In this document: piece after piece, positions 51,287 to 58,297 of the stretch
How the letters are laid out: each line of letters opens with the position of its first letter
How positions within the stretch are numbered: the stretch's first letter is position 1
Source: Streptomyces sp. NA04227
GTDB lineage: Bacteria; Actinomycetota; Actinomycetes; Streptomycetales; Streptomycetaceae
DNA length: 64,000 nt
Direction of reading: 5' to 3'
NCBI RefSeq assembly: GCF_013364195.1
Contig: NZ_CP054918.1
Span: 1,973,001-2,037,000, forward strand
The notes under the pieces: model-generated
Databases searched by the model: none
What the model saw: only the letters and a program-made list of their open reading frames with translations
What the model was told of the DNA's origin: nothing
Position numbers and translations under genes: made by a program

Positions 51287-54220
51287 TCAGGCGGGCACGA
51301 TGTTGACCAGCTTCGGCGCCCTGACGATGACCTTGCGGATACCGGCGCCGTCCAGTGCCGCGACGACCTTCTCGTCGTTCAGCGCCGTCCGCTCCAGTTC
51401 CTCGTCGGAGATCGCCGGGGAGACCTCCAGGCGGGCCTTGACCTTGCCCTTGATCTGGACGACACAGGTGACCGTCTCGTCGACGACGTACGCGGGGTCG
51501 GCGACGGGGAAGTCCCGGTGCACCACCGAGTCGGTGTGGCCCAGCTTGCGCCACAGTTCCTCGGCGATGTGCGGGGCCAGCGGCGCGATCAGCAGCACCA
51601 GGTGCTCGGCGACGGTGCGGGGCACGGCGCCGGAGTTCTTGGTCACATGGTTGTTCAGCTCGGTGATCTTGGCGATGGCGGTGTTGAAGCGCATGCCCTC
51701 CAGGTCCTGGCGGACCCCGTCGACGGCCTTGTGCAGCGCCCGCAGCGTGTCGCCGTCGGCCTGCGGGTCCAGCTCGCTCTCGACGACCGTGACCTCACCG
51801 GTGACCTCGTCGACGATGTTGCGCCACAGCCGCTGCAGCAGCCGGTACTGCCCGATCACCGCGCGGGTGTCCCAGGGCCGGGACACGTCCAGCGGGCCCA
51901 TCGCCATCTCGTACAGGCGCAGGGTGTCGGCGCCGTACTCGGCGCAGATCTCGTCGGGAGTGACCGCGTTCTTCAGGGACTTGCCCATCTTGCCCAGCAG
52001 CCGGGAGACCTTTTCGCCCTGGTAGTAGTAGGCGCCGTCCCGCTCCTCGACCTCGGCCGCGGGCACCGCGATGCCACGGCTGTCGCGGTAGACGTAGGCC
52101 TGGATCATGCCCTGGTTGAACAGCTTGTGGAACGGCTCGGCCGAGGAGATGTGGCCCAGGTCGAACAGGACCTTGGACCAGAACCTCGCGTACAGCAGGT
52201 GCAGTACGGCGTGCTCGGCGCCGCCCACGTACAGGTCGACGCCGCCGGTCGGCATGCCCTCGCGCGGGCCCATCCAGTACTGCTCGATGGCCGGGTCGAC
52301 CAGCTTGTCGGCGTTGTGCGGGTCCAGGTAGCGCAGCTCGTACCAGCAGGAACCGGCCCAGTTGGGCATGGTGTTGGTCTCGCGGCGGAAGCGGCGCGGG
52401 CCTTGGCCGTCGCCCAGGTCCAGGGTGACGTTGACCCAGTCCTCGTTGCGGGACAGCGGGGTCTCGGGCTGGGTGTCGGCGTCGTCGGGGTCGAAGGTGC
52501 GCGGGGAGTAGTCCTCGACCTCGGGCAGTTCCAGCGGCAGCATCGACTCGGGCAGCGCGTGTGCGACGCCGTCCTCGTCGTAGACGATCGGGAAGGGCTC
52601 GCCCCAGTACCGCTGGCGGCTGAACAGCCAGTCGCGCAGCCGGAAGTTGACGGTGCCGCTGCCGATGCCGCGGCGCTCCAGCCATTCGGTGGTGCGGGCC
52701 TTGCCCTCGGTGACGCCCAGGCCGTTCAGGTCGATGTCGTCGTTGACGGAGTTGACCAGCTTCGCCTCGTAGGAGGAGAAGGCGTCGTCCCAGGCGGCCG
52801 GGTCGGTGCCGCGGCTGTCGGTGGGCTCGACCACGCAGCGCATGGGCAGTTCGAAGGCGCGCGCGAAGGCGAAGTCACGGGTGTCGTGCGCCGGGACCGC
52901 CATGATCGCGCCGGTGCCGTAGCCCATCAGGACGTAGTCGGCGATGAAGACGGGCACCTTGTCGCCGCTGACCGGGTTGACGGCGAAGGCGCCGGTGAAC
53001 ACACCGGTCTTTTCCTTGGCGTCGGCCTGCCGCTCCACGTCCGACTTGGCGGCCGCCTGCTTGCGGTAGGCGGTGACCGCCTCGCCGGGGGTGGCGTGGC
53101 CGCCGGTCCACACTTCGTGGGTGCCCTCGGGCCAGGCGCCCGGGACGATCGTGTCCACCAGCTCGTGCTCGGGCGCCAGCACCATGTACGTGGCGCCGAA
53201 CAGGGTGTCCTGACGGGTCGTGAACACGGTGACGACGTCGTCGCCGACCGGGAAGTCGACCCGGGCGCCCTCGGAACGGCCGATCCAGTTGCGCTGCTGC
53301 AGCTTGATCGCCTCGGGCCAGTCCAGGCCGTCCAGATCGTTCAGCAGCCGGTCCGCGTAGGCGGTGATGCGCATGTTCCACTGGCGCAGCTTGGCCTTGA
53401 ACACGGGGTAGTTGCCGCGCTCGGACCGGCCCTCGGAGGTGACTTCCTCGTTGGCCAGGACGGTGCCCAGGCCCGGACACCAGTTGACGGGGGCGTCGGA
53501 GGCGTAGGCCAGGCGGTACTCGCCCAGGACGCCCGCGCGCTCGGCGGCGCTCAGCTCACTCCAGGAGCGCCCGGAAGGCACCGCGCGCTCCCCGCTCGCG
53601 AACTGGGCGACCAGTTCGTCGATGGGCCGGGCCCGCTTCGCCTCGTCGTCGTACCAGGAGTTGAAGATCCGCAGGAAGATCCACTGGGTCCACTTGTAGT
53701 ACTCGGGGTCGATCGTCGCGAACGACCGCCGCTTGTCGTGGCCCAGGCCCAGCCCGCGCAGCTGGGCCTTCATGTTCTCCATGTTGGCCTCGGTGGAGAC
53801 CCGCGGGTGCGTGCCGGTCTGCACCGCGTACTGCTCGGCGGGCAGGCCGAACGCGTCGAAGCCCAGCGTGTGCAGGACGTTGTGGCCGGTCATCCGCTGG
53901 AAGCGGGCGAAGACGTCGGTGGCGATGTAGCCCAGCGGGTGGCCGACGTGCAGACCCGCGCCCGAGGGGTACGGGAACATGTCCATGATGAACCTCTTGG
54001 GACGCGCGGCCACCGCGGCGTCCCCGGACAGGTCGCCCGACGGATTCGGCGCCTCGTACGTGCCGTGCTCGTCCCAGAAGTCCTGCCAGCGCGCTTCGAT
54101 ACCGGCTGCCATGGCGGCCGTGTAGCGGTACGGTGCCGTGTTCGCCGCGTCGTCGGCGGTTGCCGTGTTCTCAGCGGCCTCCGCCGTTGCCTCGGCGGCG
54201 GAGGGATTCGTCTCGCTCAT
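51287..54220 (-). CDS. leuS: Leucine--tRNA ligase
   Basis: A class I aminoacyl-tRNA synthetase of 977 residues that charges tRNA-Leu. The HIGH-like motif is [17 protein letters not shown], the editing domain carries the [12 protein letters not shown] and [15 protein letters not shown] motifs, and the KMSKS loop reads KMGKSLKN. The start MSETNPS at 54220 is preferred over a longer frame because GAGGATC precedes it. The first about 30 residues are an Ala/Glu-rich extension. Upstream is a short leader ORF with three Leu codons followed by an intrinsic terminator, so transcription attenuation by leucine charging is likely. Confidence 0.98.
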
Positions 54221-54266: not shown

Positions 54267-54291
54267 AAAAATCCCCTCGCACAGGAGGGGA
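54267..54291 (-). terminator. Attenuator terminator upstream of leuS
   Basis: A 7-bp stem UCCCCUC/GAGGGGA with a 6-nt loop followed directly by UUUUU, lying 47 nt before the leuS start. A U-run terminator inside the 5' leader is a strong sign of transcription attenuation. Confidence 0.82.
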
Positions 54292-54304
54292 CGCCGCGCC
54301 GATT

Positions 54305-54329
54305 CCGACCGCTGTTCCCAGCCGGTCGG
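54305..54329 (-). promoter_or_regulatory. Leader hairpin between leader ORF and attenuator
   Basis: CCGACCG/CGGTCGG forms a 7-bp stem extended by CTG/CAG around a GGAA tetraloop. The adjoining GCCGCGC at the end of the leader ORF and GCGCGGC just before the terminator are complementary and could form an alternative antiterminator fold. Confidence 0.6.
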
Positions 54330-54335
54330 GACTGA

Positions 54336-54374
54336 TCAGCGCGGCCCGCTAAGCAGAAGGCGTACGGCACGCAT
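54336..54374 (-). CDS. leuS leader peptide
   Basis: A 12-codon [15 protein letters not shown], with three consecutive Leu codons (CTT CTG CTT). It shares the CTTCT(C/G)CTTAGC core with the leuA leader. A TACCCT hexamer lies 7 nt upstream of the ATG, so the transcript may start at or near the ATG and be leaderless. Ribosome stalling at the Leu codons would favour the antiterminator and let leuS be transcribed. Confidence 0.72.
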
Positions 54375-54627
54375 GGCGTCAGGGTACCGCAGCGCCTCAG
54401 CCGTGGGCGACGGAGTTCACCCCTCGGCCCACAGCGCACACAAGCGACCTGTCACCCCACCCACCGATCGCACAGCGGAGCCCGGCAACCACTCCCGCAG
54501 ACGAGCCCGGCGACCAATCGGACACACAGGCCCGGCAACCCGACTCCCACAGCCCGCCGTCCGACCTCATGGGGGGTGTGGGTGGCGCAGCCCCCACAAC
54601 GCGAGGGCGAAGCCCGAGCAAAAACAA

Positions 54628-54680
54628 CGAAAGCGACCCGGCTCGCGCTTACCGCGAGCACAGATCGCCTATCGCTTTCG
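54628..54680 (-). terminator. Terminator of tRNA-Ala copy 1
   Basis: CGAAAGCGA (54672-54680 on the minus strand) pairs with TCGCTTTCG (54628-54636), with an inner GCTCGCG/CGCGAGC hairpin (54641-54659) and a U-rich tail (54620-54627). The stem begins at the base after the discriminator. Confidence 0.82.
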
Positions 54681-54753
54681 TGGAGCTAAGGAGAATTGAA
54701 CTCCTGACCTCCTGCATGCCATGCAGGCGCTCTACCAACTGAGCTATAGCCCC
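54681..54753 (-). tRNA. tRNA-Ala (anticodon GGC)
   Basis: 73 nt including discriminator A73. The acceptor stem GGGGCTA/TAGCTCC contains the G3-U70 pair that identifies tRNA-Ala. The D-arm is GCTCAGTTGGTAGAGC, and the anticodon arm is CCTGC-ATGGCAT-GCAGG with anticodon GGC. The T-arm ends AGGAGTTCAATTCTCCT. CCA is not encoded, so RNase Z-type processing and CCA addition are needed. It reads GCC/GCU Ala codons, very frequent in this genome. Confidence 0.98.
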
Positions 54754-54956
54754 GGGAGGTCTCCGCCCGGTTTCCCCGGCGGCGACGCCAACATTACACG
54801 GTCCTGGCGGGTGACCACCAAATCGGTTTCCGCGTCCCGGGCTCGCACGGAGCACGAAGGCGCACGTCATCGGCGCGCGCGGGGCAGGGGCGCCCGGAAA
54901 TGACCGGGGCCCGGCTCCAAGTCCCGTTTGGTGAACGGTGGTTGGGCCGGGCCGGT

Positions 54957-57892: not shown

Positions 57893-58053
57893 CGGGCAGC
57901 CCCGGGCACTCGGGACCGCGACCACCCCCGCCCCGACCGCCTCAACGCTCCGGGCAACCAGCAACAGGAATCCCACAGCCAGCCGTCCGACCTGATGGGG
58001 GGCGTGGGTGGCGCAGCCCCCACAACGCGAGGGCGAAGCCCGAGCAAAAACAA

Positions 58054-58106
58054 CGAAAGCGACCCGGCCCACGCATTCCGTGAGCACAGATCGCTTATCG
58101 CTTTCG
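58054..58106 (-). terminator. Terminator of tRNA-Ala copy 2
   Basis: The outer stem CGAAAGCGA/TCGCTTTCG (58098-58106 with 58054-58062) is identical to copy 1. The inner hairpin GCTCACG/CGTGGGC (58067-58085) differs from copy 1 but stays paired, and a U-rich tail follows at 58046-58053. Confidence 0.82.
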
Positions 58107-58179
58107 TGGAGCTAAGGAGAATTGAACTCCTGACCTCCTGCATGCCATGCAGGCGCTCTACCAACTGAGCTATAGCCCC
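58107..58179 (-). tRNA. tRNA-Ala (anticodon GGC)
   Basis: 73 nt, identical to the tRNA-Ala at 54681-54753: G3-U70 in the acceptor stem, anticodon GGC, no encoded CCA. It is 3.4 kb from the first copy with its own upstream sequence and presumably its own promoter. Confidence 0.98.
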
Positions 58180-58297
58180 GTGTTCTTCCCGCTCTGCGGG
58201 CGAACAAGAAGAACTTTAGCCTGCGACCGGCCGGAAAGTGAAATCCGCTCTTCGGGCACCCGTCCGGCCCGCGCGGGCGGCGCATGCGCCCTCGGCC

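Follow-up and report, generated by a model that had tools for sequence, protein, structure and literature searches.

Leucine-codon leader, covarying helices and intrinsic terminator upstream of leuS in Streptomyces and other Actinomycetes

The leucyl-tRNA synthetase gene leuS of Streptomyces sp. NA04227 is preceded by a short open reading frame (ORF) with three leucine codons and by an intrinsic terminator, which together probably form a ribosome-mediated transcription attenuator sensing charged leucyl-tRNA, most likely the isoacceptor with the anticodon GAG. The leader lies on the minus strand of the window, the whole stretch of 64,000 nucleotides analysed here (contig NZ_CP054918.1, positions 1,973,001 to 2,037,000). 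An earlier note, made from the letters of this DNA alone, had described a 12-codon ORF with three leucine codons, a hairpin and a terminator with a U5 tail in front of leuS. All of these parts are present (Table 1), and the observation is correct. Its interpretation as classical attenuation is partly supported and right in outline: the conserved leucine ORF, the terminator, covarying helices and a promoter-like box speak for it, but the alternative fold that it named is not supported as an antiterminator.

The leuS leader element is already in print for Streptomyces. Seliverstov and colleagues predicted in 2005 that S. avermitilis and S. coelicolor have classical attenuators upstream of leuS (PMC1262725), and the reannotation of S. 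lividans TK24 by RNA-seq in 2021 describes leuL2 as leaderless, with a hairpin and a run of uridines after it (PMC8079986). In the passages of both papers that deal with these attenuators, Streptomyces is the only genus reported. Comparison by eye with the leuL2 passage (PMC8079986) indicated that the window peptide differs by one residue and that hairpin and uridine stretch are alike; the leaderless start there has its counterpart in a leaderless-type box here. The relevant main-text parts of PMC9413887, PMC8269248 and PMC11109978 do not treat the leuS leader. In a search of the open-access literature, no further paper was recognised as treating leuS leaders. Attenuation of aminoacyl-tRNA operons was reportedly the subject of work by Lopatovskaya and colleagues in 2010, which may cover more species, so that the wider distribution of the leader described below may not be new.

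Table 1. Features of the leuS leader region in the window (window coordinates; arms and hairpins as predicted by folding).
Feature	Position	Strand	Basis
TACCCT, -10-like box	54381..54386	-	sequence; 6 nt 5' of leader start codon, leaderless arrangement
Leader ORF, 12 codons and stop (ATG CGT GCC GTA CGC CTT CTG CTT AGC GGG CCG CGC TGA)	54336..54374	-	sequence, conservation; S. lividans homologue in the leuL2 passage of PMC8079986
Three Leu codons, CTT CTG CTT	54351..54359	-	leader counts and codon-blind recheck
P1 5' arm, overlapping last leader codons and stop	54335..54345	-	folding, covariation
Variable hairpin P2 within P1	54305..54329	-	folding; absent or shortened in many relatives
P1 3' arm, adjoining terminator (2-nt gap in window)	54293..54303	-	folding, covariation
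Terminator stem-loop T, CCCCTC-CTGTGC-GAGGGG	54273..54290	-	folding, covariation, window scan
U5 tract of terminator	54267..54271	-	sequence, window scan
Putative RNA polymerase pause site (UG dinucleotide, 10 nt 3' of P1)	54282..54283	-	inferred
leuS, leucine--tRNA ligase, 977 aa	51287..54220	-	TIGR00396 above cut-off

The terminator with its tail (CCCCTC-CTGTGC-GAGGGG-ATTTTT, 54290-54267) ends 46 nt 5' of the leuS start codon (ATG at 54220). The pairing of GCCGCGC with GCGCGGC, pointed out in the earlier note, is real and belongs to an 11-bp helix termed P1. The 108-nt leader folded with -59.4 kcal/mol (z -4.0), and none of 200 shuffled sequences folded equally well. A scan of both strands for hairpins with a T5 tail (stem of at least 6, at least 4 G-C) returned a single case in 64 kb, the terminator of the leuS leader. 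A TANNNT box 6-7 nt before an ORF of 6-30 codons occurs twice in the 64 kb on both strands, the leuS leader being one of the two cases. In Firmicutes, leuS carries a T-box leader. The synthetase is the same, but here scanning the window with Rfam models at gathering scores yielded two tRNAs only and neither a T-box nor any other Rfam leader, and control would go via a translated ORF. No plasmid match was found. A 223-nt direct repeat (54532-54754 and 57958-58180, 94% identical) contains tRNA-Ala(GGC) twice, and one copy lies upstream of the leader.

The conservation that the earlier note had asked for was found: all 69 Streptomyces-type loci (Streptomyces, Kitasatospora, Streptantibioticus, Wenjunlia and two records named only Actinobacteria bacterium) among 80 loci examined have the leader ORF. 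Seven of the 11 other named loci, from Austwickia, a Micromonosporaceae MAG, Catellatospora, Ornithinimicrobium, an Intrasporangiaceae bacterium, Kibdelosporangium and Lentzea, carry a leucine leader with P1 and terminator; it was not seen in the other four, three Aeromicrobium loci and Sediminivirga. Of 80 further, hand-chosen upstream regions of the class, 32 contained the leader. The covariance model R1, built from 56 leaders, matched 172 of 393 class genomes in 63 of 122 genera; 44 of the matched genomes belong to the genus of the window, and the genomes searched include some that had also served for training. R1 found no match in the other 221 class genomes, and thus leuS can do without the leader. 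LeuS was encoded downstream in 39 of 40 matches fetched, which were hand-picked to spread over families, and when only cases with LeuS seen downstream are counted, the class members with the leader fall under 24 family labels. A sample of the phylum gave 22 matches in 296. Five lie outside the class, and three of the five, from one family label, precede LeuS. One genome (G188, contig 30) contains a second leader with a LeuS-like coding region, partly masked, which may reflect duplication or contamination.

Both helices are supported by covariation. In a MAFFT alignment of 56 leaders, 96.6% of the cells of P1 and T were paired and six of 17 pairs had changed on both sides, a value reached by 3 of 500 shuffles; the number of further pair types was unexceptional (89/500), and the other three measures were never reached (0/500). 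A structure-fitted alignment of 95 leaders, which was fitted to R1 and hence favours that structure, and which omits two weak reverse-strand matches and the citramalate synthase leader L240, also gave 96.6% paired cells, with changes on both sides in 11 of 17 pairs and in 81 cells; no shuffle out of 500 reached any of the five measures. Sliding the partners of P1 and T by 1-3 columns in these 95 leaders lowered pairing to 42-56%. Twelve chance helices in the output of the leader finder were removed by hand. The core of P1, GCCG..CGGC, is nearly invariant among the 95 leaders. In 14 of them TAG occupies the codon next to P1, and P1 is kept where the ORF ends before it; P1 is therefore not a by-product of coding.

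The geometry of the leader is fixed at two points. The last leucine codon is separated from the start of P1 by 5 nt in 94 leaders, which are all those with the full 17-nt stretch before P1, and P1 is separated from the terminator core by 2 nt in 71, 3 nt in 21, 1 nt in two and 4 nt in one of 95 leaders. The distance between the arms of P1 ranges from 1 to 53 nt in the same set. At least four T are found among the first eight bases of the terminator tail in 88 of 95 leaders, and when the best terminator was searched for up to 48 nt after P1, 11 of 103 leaders gave one at a distance above 2 nt. One leader (L141) was left out of this search and of the ribosome-mask and loop tests described below, and another, at a contig edge (L209), of the counts with 94 leaders. 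A TANNNT box precedes the leader start in 94 of 94 leaders, at 6 nt in 66, 7 nt in 27 and 9 nt in one, compared with 0.9% of random upstream positions; where several in-frame starts were available, one with a box was preferred for this count. As the spacing is kept throughout, leaderless transcription is likely across the leader family and beyond S. lividans.

The earlier note had regarded the GCCGCGC:GCGCGGC pairing as an alternative fold. P1 and T have no bases in common, though, and when the P1-to-T segments of 95 leaders were folded to minimum energy, both were present in 94, 1-4 nt apart. As they also form together in the minimum-energy fold of the window leader, P1 does not exclude the terminator, and its candidature as antiterminator was rejected. 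The leuS attenuator of PMC1262725 is called classical, with an antiterminator, in the passage concerned, whereas P1 and T are compatible here. Other candidate pairings were compared with shuffled sequences. Pairing of the linker with the 3' or 5' arm of the terminator (mean ranks 0.540 and 0.578) and of the leucine codons with the 5' arm of the terminator or the 3' arm of P1 (0.556 and 0.525) stayed at chance level, and the value for the leucine codons with the 3' arm of the terminator (0.317; 15 of 95 at or below 0.1) is probably due to the pyrimidine content of leucine codons. Attenuators of the E. coli trp/leu type are ribosome-mediated and combine a leader ORF containing tandem cognate codons with a terminator. 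The leuS leader is alike in both respects, but it is without a supported overlapping antiterminator and its ORF appears to be leaderless. A base-paired antiterminator for the leuS leader is not well supported.

One rival reading is a trp-like attenuator of four segments, in which P1 would be the protecting helix 1:2, the P1 3' arm paired with the terminator loop (GCGCGG:CUGUGC) the antiterminator 2:3, and T the terminator 3:4; a ribosome stalled at the third leucine codon, which would be the regulatory codon and is always CUU or CUC, would mask half of P1 and free 2:3. When nt 1-35 of the window leader were masked, presumably about the reach of a ribosome waiting at that codon, and the 3' end was set at nt 98, P1 disappeared and 2:3 formed with a probability of 0.98, but once the 3' arm of T was complete (nt 102) T stood at 1.00 and 2:3 at 0.00. 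In the 56-row alignment 91.5% of the cells allow the six 2:3 pairs, a share that drops to 22-65% when the partners are slid, yet no compensatory changes were observed in that alignment and the loops differ between leaders. The P1 3' arm paired with the loop mildly better than shuffled sequences did (mean rank 0.373, 29 of 95 leaders at or below 0.1, uncorrected for relatedness), but compared with random loops it was at chance (mean rank 0.50, 48 distinct loops). Moreover, P1 would be masked just as well by a ribosome that has reached the stop codon. We regard this reading as unlikely.

Equilibrium folding with ribosome masks pointed in the direction opposite to classical attenuation; the calculation ignores transcription kinetics and the polymerase and uses an assumed ribosome footprint. 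For 101 leaders the mean odds of T, expressed in kcal/mol, were -5.67 without a ribosome, -6.59, -6.96 and -6.39 with the ribosome at the first, second and third leucine codon, and -4.61 to -4.83 with the ribosome beyond these codons. With the ribosome over the 5' arm of P1 (A site from one codon past the leucine codons to the stop), T was weaker in 57-68 and stronger in 13-21 of the 101 leaders.

That T was strongest in folding when the ribosome position lets P1 form is in line with P1 being a pause or factor-binding hairpin that aids termination, the ribosome acting by melting it. The nearly invariant core of P1 would fit such a function, and so would a pyrimidine-G, which we take to be an RNA polymerase pause motif and which 82 of 95 leaders have at 10 or 11 nt from the end of P1. 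The remaining 13 leaders have no pyrimidine-G at 10-11 nt, yet P1 abuts the terminator in 95 of 95, and pausing alone yields no antitermination. In the S10 leader, L4 control reportedly needs a hairpin 5' of the terminator, which may be a precedent. On balance, a pause or factor-binding role for P1 appears improbable.

The choice of leucine codons differs between leader and gene. The last leucine codon of the leader is CUU in 85 and CUC in nine of 94 leaders and never CUG, a result favoured by the original leader finder, which required CTT or CTC, and by R1, which itself favours CTT. A recheck without any demand on the codon found CTT in 70 of 70 Streptomyces-type leaders, the window included, and a codon-blind search of 80 class regions recovered 28 leaders, 26 with CTT and two with CTC. 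The window leuS, on the other hand, uses 75 CTG and no other leucine codon, and 68 Streptomyces-type leuS genes (L002-L069) together contain 4946 CTG, 150 CTC, 5 CTT and 33 TTG. In the same genome, ten further genes with functions in translation showed 33-55% CTC, with CTG/CTC/CTT counts of, for example, 60/39/1, 13/13/1, 27/18/1, 38/22/1 and 34/26/0; this set was assembled by family search and our own recognition, with the sense strand assigned by eye and one gene omitted whose frame runs far upstream (L257).

Among 67 tRNA matches in this genome, 12 are long and include tRNA-Leu with the anticodons GAG (two), CAG (one), TAG, CAA and TAA. The tRNA-Leu with GAG decodes CUC and CUU. The split between CUU or CUC in the leader and CUG in leuS suggests that this may be the tRNA sensed: a leader responding to tRNA-Leu(GAG), in front of a gene that has to be expressed while this tRNA is scarce, would be expected to show such a split. 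According to the control-codon theory, as outlined in the passage of PMC1183508 concerned, codon choice is readable as starvation sensitivity; the split fits this theory and favours the classical direction. In 20 genomes with the leader the share of CTC plus CTT in leuS was 0.149, compared with 0.281 in 20 genomes without it (controls 0.428 and 0.442), and the share fell below half of the control in 12 of 20 and 5 of 20 genomes, respectively (p 0.0016, uncorrected for kinship). The purge is not universal in these 20 plus 20 genomes, since three without the leader are purged and several with it are not. Three leuS genes of one family label (f16; L287-L289) contain CUG only, and R1 finds no leader there.

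A constitutive partial terminator behind a short unregulated ORF, with no leucine control at all, would agree with the lack of a supported antiterminator, but it leaves the conservation of the leucine codons, their choice, the spacing and the covarying P1 across many families unexplained, and we consider it very improbable.

Similar layouts were found in other leaders. In the ilvB leader of the same genome (MRTRILVLGKRVG), which is followed by a gene for acetolactate synthase (partial match), the helix at the ORF end adjoins the terminator with a gap of 0 nt in the fold. R1 also matched the leader MPSQVLIIVRRAG before a citramalate synthase gene (partial protein, best model just under cut-off) and the leader MTSTLTLLLLS before leuA, both with an abutting layout by eye. 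Outside the class, a weak R1 match (E 3e-5) contains the leader MNRTATIFLLHLVLIT together with a hairpin in abutting position. The abutting design appears to recur in leuS, ilvB, citramalate synthase and leuA leaders. The uORF attenuator of Corynebacterium ilvB-II likewise comprises, in the passage describing it, a leader ORF spanning a P1 hairpin and then a terminator hairpin, and its reporter was high in minimal and low in rich medium (PMC10272879). Its antiterminator, according to the same passage, consists of the P1 loop and the 3' shoulder of the terminator, whereas in leuS leaders the linker pairs with the terminator 3' arm at chance level only. Codon mutations in the S. coelicolor ilvB leader were without effect (Craster 1999, as reported in the passage of PMC1262725).

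A ribosome-mediated attenuator is the most probable reading. In its favour we count conservation, covariation, the box (94/94), CUU or CUC as last leucine codon (94/94), the spacings, the tRNA-Leu with GAG, and the prior prediction and RNA-seq; against it we count the coexistence of P1 and T, the direction in folding, the Craster 1999 ilvB result and the 221 of 393 unmatched genomes. Transcription would start at or beside the leader ATG, and a ribosome would follow RNA polymerase closely while translating the 12 codons. With ample leucine the ribosome would reach the stop codon and cover the 5' arm of P1, so that P1 would be absent, T would fold and transcription would end before leuS. With scarce leucyl-tRNA the ribosome would stall on the leucine codons, P1 would form and read-through into leuS would rise. 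As P1 adjoins T without base-pair overlap in the aligned leaders, we propose that steric hindrance by P1 at the RNA exit channel keeps T from being completed, a step that is possible but falls short of being probable.

In its widest form this leads to an abutting-helix attenuator, in which the ribosome would decide whether P1 forms against the base of the terminator, P1 would prevent termination by filling the RNA exit path without competing for bases, the design would recur in branched-chain leaders, and the leuS version would read tRNA-Leu(GAG), with CUC and CUU retained by the leader but almost eliminated from leuS in several families. Taken as a whole, we put this forward tentatively and consider it rather doubtful. 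Beyond what is in print, the present analysis adds the leuS leader under those 24 family labels, a leaderless-type box in all 94 leaders inspected and two near-fixed spacings beside a drifting P1 loop. It also raises a concrete and testable question, namely whether a helix that merely abuts a terminator can switch this terminator off. If the abutting-helix reading is true, LeuRS would still be made when tRNA-Leu(GAG) runs short.
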